NCBI RefSeq assembly: GCF_003730195.1
Contig: NZ_QWGG01000001.1
Location: 62,001-126,000, forward strand
From: Halosimplex salinum
Lineage (GTDB): Archaea > Halobacteriota > Halobacteria > Halobacteriales > Haloarculaceae
Direction of reading: 5' to 3'
Length of the DNA: 64,000 bases
The position numbers and the translations under genes are program-made. Below the pieces are notes generated by a model. That model had not been told where the DNA came from, did no database searches, and saw only the letters and a program-made list of their open reading frames with translations. This document shows, in pieces, positions 13,354 through 25,872 of this stretch; the stretch's first letter is position 1, and each line of letters starts with the position of its first letter.

Positions 13354-15825
13354 ATGCCGGATGCGACAGACGACGCACGTGTGCTCCACGTCGACGACGA
13401 CACCGATCTCGCCGCAGTCACCAGCAGGCACCTCGAACTCGAGAGCGACCGACTGTCGGTCGTCACGGTCGACGCGCCGGAGACCGCGCTCGAGCGAATT
13501 CGGACGGAACAGTTCGACTGCGTCGTCAGTGACTACCAGATGCCGGGGATGGACGGGCTGGCCTTGCTCGAGGCGGTCCGGGCGGAGTACCCGGACCTGC
13601 CCTTCGTCCTCTACACGGGGAAGGGGAGCGAGGAGGTCGCGAGCGACGCGATCGCGGCGGGCGTCACCGACTACCTCCAGAAGGGGACGGGGCTGGACCA
13701 CTACGCGGTGCTGGCCAACCGCGTCGAGAACGCGATCGCGGCGGCCCGAGCGGAGGACCGTGCCGCCCGACAGGAGCGTATCAGCGGCCTCGTCCGGGGC
13801 ATCAATCGCCGACTCGTCGAGGCCGACAGCGTCCGCGCCGTCGACCGCACGGTGTGCGAGGCGTTCGCCGAGTCGGACTCCTACCGGTTCGCGTGGATCG
13901 GCGAACCGGACCCCGAGACGGGCGAGATCCGCCCGCGTACGTCGGCCGGCGACGCCGAAACGTATCTTGACGAGGTGACGGTCCCGTACGTGGAGGACGC
14001 GGACCCGGCGGAGCAGGGGCCTGCCGGGCGCGCCGTCCAGACCGGGGAACTCCGGCACGCCGCGACAGTCCCGGCGGACCAGACGTGCGAGGAGTGGCGG
14101 GCCATCGCCGAGCGGCACGGGTTCGAATCGGTCGTGTTCGTCCCGCTGTCGGCCACCGACGGCCGACACGACGTGCTCGGCGTGTACGCCGACACGGTCC
14201 ACGCGACGGGCGAGACGGAGCGCGAGGTGCTCGCCGAATTGGGCGATACCGTCAGTCGAGCCAGAGCGGCCGCCGAGACGCGCAGTCGGCTGGAGTGCCG
14301 CGAGTCGGAGCTCGCGACGCGCACCCGCGCCATCGAGGCGGCGCCGGTCGGCGTCACCATCGCCGACGCGACCGAACCCGGCGAACCGATCGTCTACGCG
14401 AACGACAGGTTCTGCGAGCTGACGGGCTACGACGAGTCGTCCGTCCGCGGTCGCGACTGGCGCTTCCTCGACGGTCCGGCGACCGATCCGGAGACGAGCG
14501 AGCACGTCCGCACGGCCGTCGAGACGTGCGAGCCCGTCTCGGTCCGGATCCGCCAGCACTGCGCCGACGGCGACGTGTTCTGGAGTCGGTTCGACGCGGC
14601 GCCGGTCCGCGACGACGACGGCCGGCACACCCACTGGGTCGGGTTCCACCGCGACGTGAGCGAAGTGGTCGAGCGCGAGCGGACGCTCGAAGGGCTCCAC
14701 GGAGCCACCCGGGAACTGGTCGATGCCGAGAGCAAGACCGAGGTCGCGCGCCTGACCGTCGACGCCGTCCGTGACACCCTCGATTACCCGAACAACGTCG
14801 TCAGGCTCCTCGACGGGGACGCGAACGAACTCAGGCCGGTCGCGATATCGGCGGGCGCGGAGACGATCCTCGGGGAGCGCCCCTCCTACCCCGTGGGCGA
14901 GGGGACGGCCGGTCGGGCCTTCGCCGACGGGGAGACGCTCGTCCTCGACAATGTCCAGACGGTCGAGGACGGCTACGACCGAAAGGACGCCCGTGCGTCG
15001 ATGTACGTCCCGATCGGTGACCACGGGACGCTGTCGATCGGAGACACGAAGGCGGGCGTCTTCGACGAGTCCGACGTCCACCTCGCGGAGATCTTCGCCG
15101 CCAACGCGGAGGCGGCCCTGGACCGCGTCGAGCAGGCCCAGACGCGCAAACGACAGAACGAACGCCTGGAGGCGTTCACGAGCGTCGTCTCGCACGACCT
15201 CCGTAACCCGCTCTCGGTGCTCGTCGGCTCCCTCCCGCTCGCCGAGGAGACCGGCGAGGCCGACCACTTCGAGCGGTGTTACCGCGCGCTCGACCGGATG
15301 GAGCGGCTGATCGACGACCTGCTGCGGCTGGCCCGGGAGGGCGAGACGGTCGACGCGCCGGCACCGGTGTCGCTCCCGGACGTCGCGAGGGACGCCTGGG
15401 CCACGGTCGACACCGGCGGCGCGGAGCTCCGCGTCGAGACGGACGCGACCGTCCTCGCCGACGAGTCGCGCCTCCGACAGCTCGTCGAAAATCTCGTCCG
15501 GAACTCGGTCGAACACGGACCGAGGAACCCGGACGCGCGGGACCGGTACGGGGCGCTCCAGCACGGCGACGAGACGGTCACCGTGACGGTCGGCGACCTC
15601 CCCGAGGAGTCGGGCTTCTTCGTCGCCGACGACGGGTCCGGGATCCCCGACGACCGCCGGGACCGGGTGTTCGAGAGCGGCTTCTCTACGTCGCCCGACG
15701 GAACCGGATTCGGCCTCGCGATCGTCTCCGAGATCGCGTCGGCCCACGGCTGGACCACCGCGGTCACCGAGAGCGACACGGCGGGCGCTCGGGTGGAGAT
15801 CCGCGACGTCGACCGCCCGGACTGA
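13354..15825 (+). CDS. cytoplasmic hybrid sensor histidine kinase (REC-GAF-PAS-GAF-HisKA-HATPase)
   Basis: An 823-residue sensor kinase with no membrane segment. Order: receiver domain (8-125; phospho-acceptor D60 in CVVSDYQMPGMDG, conserved K110), GAF-like domain (about 145-310), PAS domain (325-437; EAAPVGVTIADATEPGEPIV), second GAF (about 450-592), phosphoacceptor helix with H614 (VVSHDLRNPLS) and HATPase_c (N-box VENLVRNSVEH 711-721, DDGSGIPDD, GTGFGLAIV). All key residues for autophosphorylation are present. The receiver at the N-terminus is a common haloarchaeal arrangement. A TATA-like tttattac (13311-13318) lies about 36 bases before the ATG. Signal and partner regulator unknown; no response regulator gene is adjacent. 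Confidence 0.92.
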   Translation: MPDATDDARVLHVDDDTDLAAVTSRHLELESDRLSVVTVDAPETALERIRTEQFDCVVSDYQMPGMDGLALLEAVRAEYPDLPFVLYTGKGSEEVASDAIAAGVTDYLQKGTGLDHYAVLANRVENAIAAARAEDRAARQERISGLVRGINRRLVEADSVRAVDRTVCEAFAESDSYRFAWIGEPDPETGEIRPRTSAGDAETYLDEVTVPYVEDADPAEQGPAGRAVQTGELRHAATVPADQTCEEWRAIAERHGFESVVFVPLSATDGRHDVLGVYADTVHATGETEREVLAELGDTVSRARAAAETRSRLECRESELATRTRAIEAAPVGVTIADATEPGEPIVYANDRFCELTGYDESSVRGRDWRFLDGPATDPETSEHVRTAVETCEPVSVRIRQHCADGDVFWSRFDAAPVRDDDGRHTHWVGFHRDVSEVVERERTLEGLHGATRELVDAESKTEVARLTVDAVRDTLDYPNNVVRLLDGDANELRPVAISAGAETILGERPSYPVGEGTAGRAFADGETLVLDNVQTVEDGYDRKDARASMYVPIGDHGTLSIGDTKAGVFDESDVHLAEIFAANAEAALDRVEQAQTRKRQNERLEAFTSVVSHDLRNPLSVLVGSLPLAEETGEADHFERCYRALDRMERLIDDLLRLAREGETVDAPAPVSLPDVARDAWATVDTGGAELRVETDATVLADESRLRQLVENLVRNSVEHGPRNPDARDRYGALQHGDETVTVTVGDLPEESGFFVADDGSGIPDDRRDRVFESGFSTSPDGTGFGLAIVSEIASAHGWTTAVTESDTAGARVEIRDVDRPD

Positions 15826-20839: not shown

Positions 20840-22900
20840 TCAGACGAACTCCAGTTCGACCGCTCGCACGTCGCCGAACGTCGCCTCGCAGGTCCGTTTC
20901 GACGAGTGCCCGCACACCATCAGCCCGACGGAGACGCGCTCACCGAGGTCGAGCGCCTGCTGGTCGACCGGCGTCCACTCGTCGCCGGACTCCGACAGGT
21001 AGAGCGTGACGACGCCGTCGACGTACTCGACGCGGTAGTACGAGAACGTGCCCGGGAGTTCACCGAACTGGTCGCTGTCGGTGAATCCGTCGACGCCCTC
21101 CCGCCAGGTGACCTCGGAGCCGTGTGACTCCGTCGTTCCGACGTAGCCGAACGGCGCGCGTTCGTCGGGACCGGCACGGATCGCCAACCCGCACTTGCTG
21201 AACTCGTGGGGCCCGTCGAGGTCGACGATACGGCCCTGGATACGAACCGGGGACTCGGCCTCGCCGTGGACGTAGTGGAACTCGTTCGTGTTACCCCAGA
21301 CGTTCGACCCGTCTGCGACGACCGTCCACCGGTCGGCGTCGCGGTCGTACTCGGCGCTCCCGGGCACCGACACCGGTCCCACGTCCTCGTTCCGGTCGAG
21401 CGGGACTCGTCCTCGCTCGCGCACGCCGAACTCGGTGCGGGTCACCATCGGAACGCCCGCGACCTCGATCCGAGCGCCCGGCGACTCCCCGTCCGGGCCG
21501 TTTCTGGGGGTGTCGTGGGCGGGACTCGCGGCCGTGATGTGCAGGTCCCACCCGTGCTGTTCGACGGTCTCGGCGACGATATCGAGGCCGGTCCCGGTGC
21601 CGTCCTCGGCGGTCGTGTACCCCGACTTCGTGACCTTCGACCGTTCGGAATCGGGGATGCCGGGGCCGTCGTCCTCGACGAAGAAGCCGCGGTCGAGGGC
21701 GCCGACGCGGACGGACACGTTCGGGCCCGCGTGGTCGAGCGCGTTCTTGAACAGGTTCTCGAACAGCGGCCGGAGCGTCTTCGCGTCGACCGCGACGACG
21801 GTGTCCTCCGGGAGGTCGACGGTGAGATCGGCCTCGCCGTCCGAGAGCACGCTCCAGACGTTCTCGACGAGCGGGACGAACTCCGTCGTGAGCGACTCGG
21901 CCCGGAACGACCGGAGCGTCTCGCTCGACAGCCCCTCGGTACCGGACCGCTTCGAGAGGCGCGCGAGGTCTTCGACGATGTCCTCGATACGGTGGATGCT
22001 GGTCTCGATGCCGTTGAGCGCGTCGTCCGCTCCCGCCCGGGCGCGGTCGACGTGCCCGTAGGCGATCTGGAGCGGTGTACGGAGGTCGTGGGCGACGTAC
22101 GTGATGAACTGGTCGATGCGCTCGGACTGCTCGGCGAGGTGGCGTTCGAATCGCTTCTGGTCGGTGATGTCCTCCGCGTACCCCACGATCCCCTGGACCT
22201 CGCCGTCGTCGTCGCGCCAGGGGACCTTCGTCGTCCGCGCCCAGTGGGTGTGGCCGTCGTGGTCGTACTCCCGGACGCGGTCGTATATCGGCACGCCGGT
22301 CTCGACGACCCGCATGTCGTCCTCGAAGTCGGCGCGTGCCTTCTCCCGCATGTAGTCGGCGGTGATCTCGAGGTCGGTCCGCCCGACGACCGACGCCGGG
22401 TCGACGTCGTCCTCGATGTCGGACTTGTAGAGGTGTCGCCCCTCGCGGTCCTTCGCGAACACCGCCAGCTCGGCGTCGGCGAGGAACGTGGTGAAGAGGG
22501 AGCTCTCGGCCGCGCGGCGCCGGCGCTCGTCGTACGTCTCCAGCGCGTTCCCGACCACCGTCGCGAGCGCGTCCTCGCCCGCCGACGGCGGGACGTAGCG
22601 ACAGTCGTCCAGCGCCGCCAGCGCCGCGTGGTCGCAGTCTGCGACCGGGACGGTGACGACCACCGGAACCAGGTCGGTCGTCTCCCTGACCGCGCGGCAG
22701 GCCGCCGCGGGATCGGTGCTGTCGGTGACGAGCACGCAACCGACGTCGTCGCGGTCGGACAGGACGTCGACGCTGCTCTCGACGTCCGACACCGCGAGCA
22801 GGTCGCCGGCGACCGACGGGACGAGCGCAGTGCGGATCCGGTCGACGGATTCGTCGCCCAGGAGCAACACAGTCTCAGGATCCGACAGGAGATAGCTCAT
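20840..22900 (-). CDS. histidine kinase with C-terminal lectin-like (DUF1349-type) beta-sandwich, copy A
   Basis: A 686-residue soluble protein without membrane segments. Order: degenerate receiver-like domain (1-125), PAS domain (about 135-250, ending [15 protein letters not shown]), phosphoacceptor helix with H271 ([14 protein letters not shown]), HATPase_c (N-box [13 protein letters not shown] 380-392, [19 protein letters not shown]), then about 180 residues (507-686) that resemble the DUF1349/concanavalin-like beta-sandwich: [62 protein letters not shown]. That module is normally found in secreted glycan-related proteins, so its place behind a cytoplasmic kinase is odd. A paralogue with identical layout lies 89 bp upstream. 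Confidence 0.88.
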
Positions 22901-22989
22901 CGAAACGAGTCTCTCTCGTCTGGGTTCGCCGACGCCTAAAATCTGTGGGGGTGACCGGCCGCTCGCGCTGATCCGTTCCGCGGTCCAGA

Positions 22990-25020
22990 TCAGTCGCGCA
23001 CGTCGAGTTCGGAGACGGTCACGTCCTCGAACACCGCCTCGATGGTCTCGTCCTCGCTGTGGCTACAGACCGCGAGGCCGACGACCAGCGGGTCCGCCAT
23101 CGAGACCGTCCGCTGGTCGAGCGCCTGCCACTCCTCGCCGTCGGTCGACCACGACAGCGTCACCTCGTCACCGACCGCGTCGATCCGGTACCACTGATAC
23201 GCGCCGTAGGGCTCTTCCATCTGGTCGCTGCCGGCGTACTCGCCCGTGCGCTCGCGCCACATCGTCTCGGTCCCGAAGGACTCGGTCGCGCCGACGAAGG
23301 CGAACGCGGCGTCCTCGTCGAGGCCGTCACGCACCATCAGTCCGGCTTTGCTGTACTCGTGCGTGCCCTCGTGGTCGACGAGTCGACCCTCGATCCTGAC
23401 GGGTGCCGACGCGTCGCCGTAGACGAAGTGGAACTCGTCGATGTCCTGCCAGATGTCCCGGCCGTTCCCGGTGACGGTCCAGCTATCGTCGACCGAGTTG
23501 TACCTCGACTCCCCGGGGACAGTGACGTCCCCGACGTCGGTGCTCTCCGAGAGGTCGACCGACGCGGCGGGCGTCGCGGACCGCGGGACGACGACCGGAC
23601 ACCCACCGATCTCGAACCTGGCGCCGCCGGCCGCGCTCTCGGTGACGGTCAGCGTCCAGTCCTGCTGGCCGACCGTCTCCGTCACGATAGCCAGCCCGGT
23701 CCCGCTGCCGTCATCCGACGTCGTGTAGCCGTCTTCGAGGACGTTCTCGCGTTCGTCTTCGGGGATGCCGGGGCCGTCGTCCTCGACGAAGAAACCCCTC
23801 TCCACGACCCCCACGCGGACGGTCACCCCCGGCCCGCCGTGGTCGACGGCGTTCTTCAACAGGTTCTCGATCAGCGGCCGCAGCGTCTCCGTCTCCGCTA
23901 TCACTTCCGTCCCCTCGGGGACGTCGACCTCGAGCGTGGCCTCCTCCGTCTCGTTGACGCGCCAGATGTTCTCGACGAGCGGGACCAGTTCCGTCGCGTC
24001 GACGCCGACGTCGAGCGCCTCGAGCACCTCCTCCGAGAGGCGCTGGTCCGAGCGGTCGCCCTTCGAGAGCGCGCTCAGGTCCTGGATTATCTCTTCGATG
24101 CGTTCGTTGGCCCGCTCGATCCGGTCGAAGGCGTCTTCGTCCCCCTCCCGAGCCCTGTCGAGTGCGCCCACCGATATCTGCAGGGGCGTCCGGAGGTCGT
24201 GAGAGACGTAGCTCGCGAACTGGTCGAAGCGGTCGCGCTGTTCTTCCAGTTTGCGCTCGGCGTGGATCCGCTGGCTCACTTCGTTCGTGTAGCCGACGAC
24301 CCCCTGCACCTCGCCGTCGTCGTCGTACCACGGCACCTTCGTCACTTGCGACCAGTGGTCGCCGCCCTGTCCCTCGAAGTGCTCGATCTTGTCCCGGATC
24401 GTCTCTTCGGTCTCGACGACCCGGAGGTCGTCCTCGTAGGCATCGGTCGCGGCCTCCGGGTCGTGTTCGAACACCTCCGGGTCGGTCTTCCCCTGTGCCT
24501 CCTCGGGGTCTATCGTGTACGGCACGTCGGCCATACGGAGGTAGCGCCCCGCTTCGTCCTTGGCGAACACGGTGAGTTCGCCCTCCATCAGAAGCGTCTC
24601 GAAGATGCTACTGTCCGCGGCCGTCTGGCGTCGGCGCTGGAACGTGTCGAGCGCGTCGTCGACGACGGTCGCCAGCGTCTCCATCGACGCCGATCGTGGC
24701 AGGTATCGGCAGTCGGCGTGTTCGGCCACTGCGGCCGCCGCCTCGTCCGCGTACGCCACGACCGGAAGGAGGTCGTCGGCGGCCCTGACCGCCTCGCGGA
24801 TGTCGCGGAACGTCCGCTCGTCGACGTCGACCGCGACGACACAGCCGACGTCTGTCCGCTCGGAGAGCGTCGAGCGGACGTCGTCGACGTCTTCGGCGTC
24901 TTCGGCGTCGACGGCGTCAGTGGCAGCGGCGTCCGTCACTGCGGACCGAACCCGGTCGCGATCGGCGCTCGATCCGCCGACGACGAGCGCGACCGACGGG
25001 TCCGCGAGAAGATAGCTCAT
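22990..25020 (-). CDS. histidine kinase with C-terminal lectin-like (DUF1349-type) beta-sandwich, copy B
   Basis: A 676-residue paralogue of the downstream kinase with the same order: receiver-like N-terminus (1-130), PAS (about 140-255; [20 protein letters not shown]), H274 in [14 protein letters not shown], HATPase_c ([34 protein letters not shown]), and a C-terminal beta-sandwich from about 495 (DEFHFVYGDASAPVRIEGRL, SKAGLMVRDGLDEDAAFAFV, GATESFGTETMWRE, YRIDAVGDEVTLSWS). Both begin MSYLL-DP, so they arose by tandem duplication; the sensor halves have diverged more than the kinase cores. Upstream, the start follows a TATA-poor region. Ligand and response partner unknown. Confidence 0.88.
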   Translation of the reverse strand: MSYLLADPSVALVVGGSSADRDRVRSAVTDAAATDAVDAEDAEDVDDVRSTLSERTDVGCVVAVDVDERTFRDIREAVRAADDLLPVVAYADEAAAAVAEHADCRYLPRSASMETLATVVDDALDTFQRRRQTAADSSIFETLLMEGELTVFAKDEAGRYLRMADVPYTIDPEEAQGKTDPEVFEHDPEAATDAYEDDLRVVETEETIRDKIEHFEGQGGDHWSQVTKVPWYDDDGEVQGVVGYTNEVSQRIHAERKLEEQRDRFDQFASYVSHDLRTPLQISVGALDRAREGDEDAFDRIERANERIEEIIQDLSALSKGDRSDQRLSEEVLEALDVGVDATELVPLVENIWRVNETEEATLEVDVPEGTEVIAETETLRPLIENLLKNAVDHGGPGVTVRVGVVERGFFVEDDGPGIPEDERENVLEDGYTTSDDGSGTGLAIVTETVGQQDWTLTVTESAAGGARFEIGGCPVVVPRSATPAASVDLSESTDVGDVTVPGESRYNSVDDSWTVTGNGRDIWQDIDEFHFVYGDASAPVRIEGRLVDHEGTHEYSKAGLMVRDGLDEDAAFAFVGATESFGTETMWRERTGEYAGSDQMEEPYGAYQWYRIDAVGDEVTLSWSTDGEEWQALDQRTVSMADPLVVGLAVCSHSEDETIEAVFEDVTVSELDVRD

Positions 25021-25101: not shown

Positions 25102-25872
25102 CTACACGTCTAACGAGCGACGTATCGTCGACGGGTCGGTCCCGCCGAGCAACAGCGACGTGTACCAGCCCACGACCCGAGCCGCCAGGTTACAGAGGTG
25201 CAGGGAGACCAGCGTCGCGACCAGTCCGAACGCCGAGACGGCCAGCGCCTCCGGGAGCGTGGTGACGTACCACGTCGTCACCTGGAAGGGGATCGTCAGC
25301 CCGATCTGCCAGGTCTGGAGCGCGAACTCGACGGACGGTTCGAGGCTCATCTCGCCCGACACGGGCCGGACGCCCACGTTCACGTTCTCGTAGTAGAGCG
25401 GGACGAACAGCAGCGACAGCGAGAGCGTGCCCAGGAAGACGAGGAGCGTGAACGCGGCCACACCGAGGACGAGCTTGCTCACCAGGTACACCAGTCCCTT
25501 CCAGGTCGAGAGGCTCGTGACGACGTACTTGAGGTGAGCGACCGGGTCGGAGAGCGGCGGCGCGTCCGTCGCCCCGGCGGGGACGTCGACGACGAGCGCT
25601 CTGTCGGCGACGAACCGTTCGAGCGCGGTCAGTTCCCGAGTCAGGTACACCATCGCGATCACCAGCACCACGCCCACCAGCAACACCGAGAGGGTGAGCC
25701 CGAACGCGAACCCCACGGTCAACAGGACGAAGTAGGTCAGTCCGAGCGGGAACAGGGCGGACAGGTACAGCAGGTTCGCGTACGTCTGCAGGCGCACGGG
25801 CACCCGGAGGAACCGCCAGATGAGGGCGCGCGGACCGGTCGGGAGGTCGGGGACCGAGACCCGTCGACTCAT
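25102..25872 (-). CDS. sensor-domain integral membrane protein
   Basis: A 256-residue membrane protein that fits the Pfam 'putative sensor' family. Hydrophobic segments lie at about 32-55 and 57-78 (a tight pair: YANLLYLSALFPLGLTYFVL, LTLSVLLVGVVLVIAMVYLT), about 125-160 (LVLGVAAFTLLVFLGTLSLS) and about 200-230. Conserved family features are the YLxxLFPLG pair and the loop WKGLVYLVSKLVLGVA. It is the last gene of a minus-strand cluster with a winged-helix regulator and two small membrane proteins, suggesting a membrane stress or envelope-sensing role; that is inference. Confidence 0.8.
   Translation of the reverse strand: MSRRVSVPDLPTGPRALIWRFLRVPVRLQTYANLLYLSALFPLGLTYFVLLTVGFAFGLTLSVLLVGVVLVIAMVYLTRELTALERFVADRALVVDVPAGATDAPPLSDPVAHLKYVVTSLSTWKGLVYLVSKLVLGVAAFTLLVFLGTLSLSLLFVPLYYENVNVGVRPVSGEMSLEPSVEFALQTWQIGLTIPFQVTTWYVTTLPEALAVSAFGLVATLVSLHLCNLAARVVGWYTSLLLGGTDPSTIRRSLDV

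Follow-up and report, generated by a model that had tools for sequence, protein, structure and literature searches.

Two adjacent genes of the haloarchaeon Halosimplex salinum, here called P0002 and P0001, encode cytosolic histidine kinases that carry a predicted concanavalin-type β-sandwich of the DUF1349 family (PF07081) on the C-terminal side of their ATP-binding domain. They are located within a window of 64,000 nucleotides (contig NZ_QWGG01000001.1, positions 62,001 to 126,000), by which we mean the whole stretch of DNA that was analysed. Both proteins belong to a small haloarchaeal kinase family which is apparently undescribed. As to the function of the additional domain, control of the kinase by a sugar-type ligand is tentatively rated as the most likely single mechanism, with a role in protein interaction close behind.

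Domain order and fold of the kinase pair

P0001 lies in tandem with P0002 on the minus strand, 89 bases downstream of it, and the two open reading frames agree with the initial annotation, which had described paralogous cytoplasmic kinases of 686 and 676 residues. Pfam finds the same order of domains in both, PAS_4, HisKA, HATPase_c and DUF1349, preceded by a divergent receiver-like domain, and the HisKA and HATPase_c matches of both kinases score above the Pfam cut-off. Inspection by eye, without a topology program, revealed no membrane segment in either protein. The catalytic boxes, already described as intact from the letters alone, could all be read in both kinases: the H box (AHDLRTP/SHDLRTP), the N box (KNA-DH), G1 (DDGPGIP) and G2 (GTGTGL/GSGTGL). 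The same is true of the common motifs that had been pointed out, since EFHxVxG, SKxGLxxRxGxDExA and WRE occur at matching places in both. Judged by these sequence features P0001 and P0002 are HisKA-type histidine kinases, with a predicted phospho-acceptor histidine in the dimerization and histidine phosphotransfer (DHp) domain and the N, G1 and G2 boxes in the catalytic and ATP-binding (CA) domain.

The ~198 C-terminal residues of each kinase match DUF1349, a resemblance that had been noticed before for about 180 residues. With a curated Pfam cut-off of 32.4 bits, P0002 scores 31.7 bits as a whole protein, 35.9 in the genome search and 37.2 as an excised domain; P0001 remains below the cut-off at 26.7-30 bits (whole protein 26.7, E 5.3e-6). 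The two tails are 43% identical. Because DUF1349 is matched in all 33 fused kinases that were aligned, the likeness is not fortuitous, and the conservation of the domain across many genera likewise rules out a chance resemblance. A second, weak Pfam match to GH43_C2 (PF17851) is found in 10 of the 33 tails, with 13.5 bits for P0002 at a curated cut-off of 22.7.

A profile search against PDB sequences returned 3O12, the yeast protein YJL217W, as the best match (E 0.0094). The AlphaFold model of the tail, built from three sequences, is all-β at modest confidence (predicted local distance difference test, pLDDT, 54; predicted template modelling score, pTM, 0.60), and its best Foldseek matches are the DUF1349 structures 3MEP and 3O12, followed by GH43 β-xylosidases. 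The tail region of the full-length model yields Foldseek E-values of 3.6e-10 for 3MEP and 2.6e-9 for 3O12, with template modelling scores by target length of 0.73 (3.6 Å root-mean-square deviation) and 0.62, respectively. 3MEP (ECA2234) is a protein which we take to be a DUF1349 member, and 3O12 was matched by sequence. The PDB-sequence, Pfam and fold matches together mean that the β-sandwich claim holds on sequence and fold: the tail is, as modelled, a concanavalin-type β-sandwich like 3MEP and 3O12, with the shallow alignments as a caveat. The initial annotation had staked its claim in advance on this fold, and structure prediction indeed gave a β-sandwich with these two proteins as the best solved matches. 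The solved DUF1349 proteins resemble the window tail in sequence and predicted fold but are stand-alone proteins, whereas the window domain is joined C-terminally to a histidine kinase. The C-terminal domain of GH43 β-xylosidases, GH43_C2, which represents the second-best fold class, is unlike the kinase tails part of sugar-metabolising enzymes.

At the other end of the protein, the full-length model shows five β-α units with a pLDDT mostly of 75-84, and Pfam recognises Response_reg in 7 of the 33 aligned family members. In place of the acidic pair of receiver domains we find VVGGS and LLGDES, the phospho-acceptor aspartate is not conserved among orthologues, and the segments YLPRS and YVPPS lack the conserved lysine. 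The N-terminal domain, rightly called divergent before, is a pseudo-receiver which has kept the (β-α)5 fold without conserving the phosphorylation residues.

Distribution, origin and decay of the family

We have read 57 fused copies of the architecture receiver-like/PAS/HisKA/HATPase/DUF1349 from DNA, and this number of open fusions across many genomes rules out mis-joined genes or a sequencing error. Relatives of the tail occur in 27 of 97 related genomes, the high-scoring ones being kinase fusions. Among 391 sampled Halobacteria genomes, kinase fusions with scores of ~175-305 bits are present in at least 25, a tally from the match table which is a lower bound because at most 8 candidates were scored per genome. 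In every high-scoring locus fetched (L083-L107) the tail was confirmed to be preceded by a kinase core. The second class of matches in these 391 genomes consists of non-kinase, mostly secreted proteins, mostly at or below 133 bits, with one GH81 protein at 163. In a set of 393 genomes of the phylum one genome alone outside the order was matched, in a frame of 349 residues, and 296 genomes of Actinomycetota, the phylum of the Cellulomonas locus, gave weak matches of up to 70 bits in frames of 531-2298 residues. No relative was found on viral contigs, and among the matches listed in the plasmid search there were just tail-less kinase parts and DUF1349 proteins that are not kinases.

The genome to which the window belongs contains three fused kinases, the third being L062 on contig C21, among ~22 related kinase genes (L120 and L132 are one gene), and the unfused paralogues that were readable stop 2-70 residues beyond HATPase. 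With ~25 of 391 genomes and 3 of ~22 related kinases, it can be ruled out that the tail is general to haloarchaeal kinases; the order HATPase_c followed by DUF1349 is uncommon, as had been supposed. The window pair resembles the soluble PAS-histidine kinases of haloarchaea in its PAS-HisKA-HATPase_c core, N-terminal receiver-like domain, orphan gene position and many paralogues. We found no description of the kinase-DUF1349 architecture in the open-access literature searched; it may already appear in automatic annotation databases. DUF1349 is mentioned in seven of 5.39 million open papers; two of these also name histidine kinases and deal, by their titles, with other subjects, and a C-terminal lectin-like kinase domain is not mentioned in the consulted part of the archaeal two-component census (Galperin et al. 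2018, PMC5847659).

The tree built from the tails separates all 37 kinase tails from the 12 non-kinase domains by a branch with 100/99 support. In the kinase-core tree the fused and unfused labels need three changes, two more than a single origin; the copies that fall out of place have long branches and are partly degenerate, and one clade of fused cores is not rejected by an approximately unbiased test (p 0.32). The simplest reading is that there was probably a single fusion, followed by duplication and divergence. A recent duplication of the window pair is ruled out, the P0001 tail grouping with L051 of another genus (100/99) and the P0002 tail with those of its orthologues. Five further genomes of the genus retain the P0002 locus; the kinase gene there directly adjoins a thioredoxin gene, with no P0001 in between.

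Among P0002 orthologues the ratio of non-synonymous to synonymous substitution rates (dN/dS) is lowest for DHp (0.18), followed by the catalytic domain (0.27), the tail (0.38), PAS (0.45) and the receiver-like domain (0.53). The tail is thus under purifying selection, weaker than on the core and stronger than on the two N-terminal domains. Catalytic boxes are intact in 45 of the 57 fused kinases (43 by automatic check, plus L158 and L159 from DDGP and GSGTGL motifs missed by the alignment); the other 12 have lost one or more of them and kept the tail. Among the L062 orthologues, those of four same-genus species (L066-L069) have neither N nor G2 box and retain the phospho-acceptor histidine, and in this pseudokinase set dN/dS is 0.08 for DHp, 0.11 for PAS and 0.23 for the tail. 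Since the tail is retained and constrained in copies that lack some of the boxes, it seems to be important even if ATP binding has probably been lost. Tandem pairs have been found at four independent loci, namely the window, L063, L171 and the L071-L073 set, and one partner is degenerate in the L063 and L071-L073 pairs.

Secreted relatives and gene neighbourhood

In these genomes DUF1349 is also present on proteins secreted by the twin-arginine translocation (Tat) pathway and on proteins with GH81, GH5, pectate-lyase, CBM56, ricin-B and fn3/PKD modules, and some non-kinase relatives are annotated as pectate lyase. This polysaccharide-active company points to carbohydrate surfaces. Pectate-lyase-like regions were also observed in some of the Tat-type proteins L077, L078, L079, L081 and L082. 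The Tat-secreted proteins, of pectate-lyase, GH81 and GH5 types (for example L077, L078 and L074), belong to the same domain family as the kinase tails and come partly from the same genomes, but they are exported, enzymatic or cell-surface proteins and fall on the opposite side of the 100/99 branch. The initial statement that the fold is usual in secreted glycan-related enzymes can accordingly be kept for the relatives in the same genomes, which sit on secreted polysaccharide-active modules, but not for DUF1349 as a whole, since some of its members, such as YJL217W, are presumably not secreted glycan enzymes. Residues W514, S557, G577, E585, D635 and Q636 are near-invariant in the kinase tails and nearly absent from the secreted set, while G560, R564, W588, W631, G648 and others are conserved in both groups. 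Secreted DUF1349 proteins co-occur with fused kinases in 8 of 25 genomes versus 39 of 366 (Fisher p 0.005), a figure on which we do not rely, kinship being uncontrolled and candidates limited to 8 per genome.

No response regulator is conserved near the fused kinases in the flanks read; a single one beside L044 is not common to other loci. Upstream of P0002, between 25105 and 27066, are encoded a membrane protein with a PF13796 'Sensor' domain, two DUF7521 proteins and an HTH_20 winged-helix protein, and, in this genus only, members of the cluster also flank the P0002 orthologues of five further genomes. Because Actinobacteria often have PF13796 joined to histidine kinases in one protein, a functional link between the PF13796 protein and the kinases is possible. 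A TATA-like stretch (TTTTAGG, 22935-22945, minus strand) found by eye ~36-40 bases ahead of the P0001 start might give this gene its own promoter. The window contains a further kinase of 823 residues (13354-15822) with receiver, PAS, GAF, HisKA and HATPase_c domains and no DUF1349 tail. The third fused kinase (L062, G000:C21:457500-470500) is located near isocitrate-dehydrogenase-like and isoaspartyl-peptidase/asparaginase-like genes, as are L060 and L066 in other genomes of the genus, the neighbours at these three loci being named by eye from N-terminal sequence.

Table 1. Positions of the kinase pair, its domains and related features (window coordinates unless a locus is named)
Feature	Position	Strand	Residues	Remarks
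P0002, cytosolic histidine kinase	22993..25020 (stop codon 22990-22992)	minus	676 aa	receiver-like/PAS_4/HisKA/HATPase_c/DUF1349
Degenerate receiver-like domain, P0002	24646..24996	minus	~9-125	(β-α)5 in model
PAS_4, P0002	24268..24570	minus	151-251	Pfam
HisKA, P0002	24055..24222	minus	267-322	Pfam; phospho-acceptor His274 within SHDLRTP
HATPase_c, P0002	23608..23889	minus	378-471	Pfam; N/G1/G2 intact
DUF1349, P0002	22993..23586	minus	479-676	Pfam match 512-671 = 23008-23487
P0001, paralogue	20843..22900 (stop codon 20840-20842)	minus	686 aa	architecture as P0002
Degenerate receiver-like domain, P0001	22535..22876	minus	~9-122	alignment to P0002 and family
PAS_4, P0001	22151..22465	minus	146-250	Pfam
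HisKA, P0001	21947..22114	minus	263-318	Pfam; H box AHDLRTP
HATPase_c, P0001	21515..21787	minus	372-462	Pfam; N/G1/G2 intact
DUF1349, P0001	20843..21436	minus	489-686	Pfam match 523-679 = 20864-21334
Membrane protein with PF13796 'Sensor' domain	25105..25872	minus		adjacent upstream of P0002; possible partner
Tat-type (RRTFLR or similar) secreted proteins	L077:3871-8703, L078:5625-7844, L079:3861-6893, L081, L082			one or two DUF1349 near N-terminus
Haloarchaeal GH81 protein	L074:5108-8797		1230 aa	GH81 + fn3 + DUF1349 + CBM56

Possible functions of the tail

The signals to which archaeal histidine kinases respond are little known. In the mechanism that we tentatively favour, a DUF1349 β-sandwich would have been gained C-terminal of the ATP-binding domain, probably once, before duplication and divergence, and the PAS domain and the tail would provide two cytosolic inputs. 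The tail would bind a sugar-type ligand, which might be a sugar nucleotide, a glycan intermediate or a glycoconjugate. Binding may alter the docking of the adjacent catalytic domain on the DHp helices and in this way tune autophosphorylation or phosphatase activity, the phosphate then presumably being passed to a response regulator encoded elsewhere. A sugar-type ligand is rated highest because the secreted relatives point to carbohydrate. The glycan binding of YesU was weighed as well: this Bacillus subtilis protein, annotated as cytosolic and possessing a concanavalin-type lectin fold, binds fucosylated glycans with a KD of ~0.15 micromolar (PMC6120924). YesU resembles the kinase tails in its fold and, as annotated, in its location but is not fused to a kinase, and PF09224 is matched nowhere in the genome of the window. 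By analogy a glycan-binding role for this fold would be plausible. As a protein of what we take to be another Pfam family it has been set aside as direct evidence for ligand binding by DUF1349.

Several observations weigh against a sugar-type ligand. The best glycan-binding analogue, YesU, presumably belongs to DUF1961 rather than DUF1349, and the literature searched yielded no ligand demonstrated for any DUF1349 protein. Neither a ligand nor a binding site was identified in the tail, and the residues conserved in kinase and secreted groups alike could be purely structural. The models are low to middling in confidence (pLDDT 54 and 58) because only three sequences were used, and with a pTM of 0.35 the relative placement of domains in the full-length model is not reliable.

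The tail could instead be a module for protein-protein interaction or localisation, bringing the kinase to a glycoprotein, to a membrane complex or to another kinase of the pair, or serving as a scaffold for heterodimers. We consider this a real possibility, if a somewhat lesser one, as the tail persists in the 12 kinases with missing boxes, as DHp, PAS and tail are still constrained in the four same-genus copies that lost the N and G2 boxes, and as two of the four independent tandem loci pair a degenerate with an intact copy. The kinase-specific residues could form the interface, but they could equally be ligand-binding or structural, and the secreted relatives suggest carbohydrate surfaces, not protein partners. 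An elaboration of ligand control, in which an exported carbohydrate-binding module was turned into a cytosolic C-terminal input reading a sugar nucleotide or glycan intermediate, would make these proteins lectin-gated kinases modulated by degenerate tandem partners through heterodimerisation; in this full form it is rather unlikely. More doubtful still is the idea that the tail stabilises the catalytic domain, as a structural cap or an adaptation to salt, and takes no part in regulation. This would agree with the short linker after HATPase, with the ~200 residues that follow the core in nearly all 57 copies and with a tail evolving somewhat faster than the catalytic core, but paralogues of the same genome manage without the tail, and it is kept where the catalytic domain has decayed. 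Degenerate copies and tandem pairs could also mean that these kinases are converging on a non-kinase role, as phosphatases or phospho-acceptors, with the window pair acting mainly as a heterodimer; this is the least probable explanation, given that every catalytic box is kept in both window kinases.

The family offers a candidate input domain that is defined, excisable and unusually placed and whose relatives suggest a class of ligand, and the same-genome kinases without the tail together with the copies whose catalytic domains have decayed constitute natural comparisons. Ligand sensing and control of the kinase from its C-terminal side are therefore directly testable, and the six residues specific to the kinase tails, W514, S557, G577, E585, D635 and Q636, are good first targets. 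At the same time DUF1349, a widespread domain of unknown function, gains a context from this kinase family.

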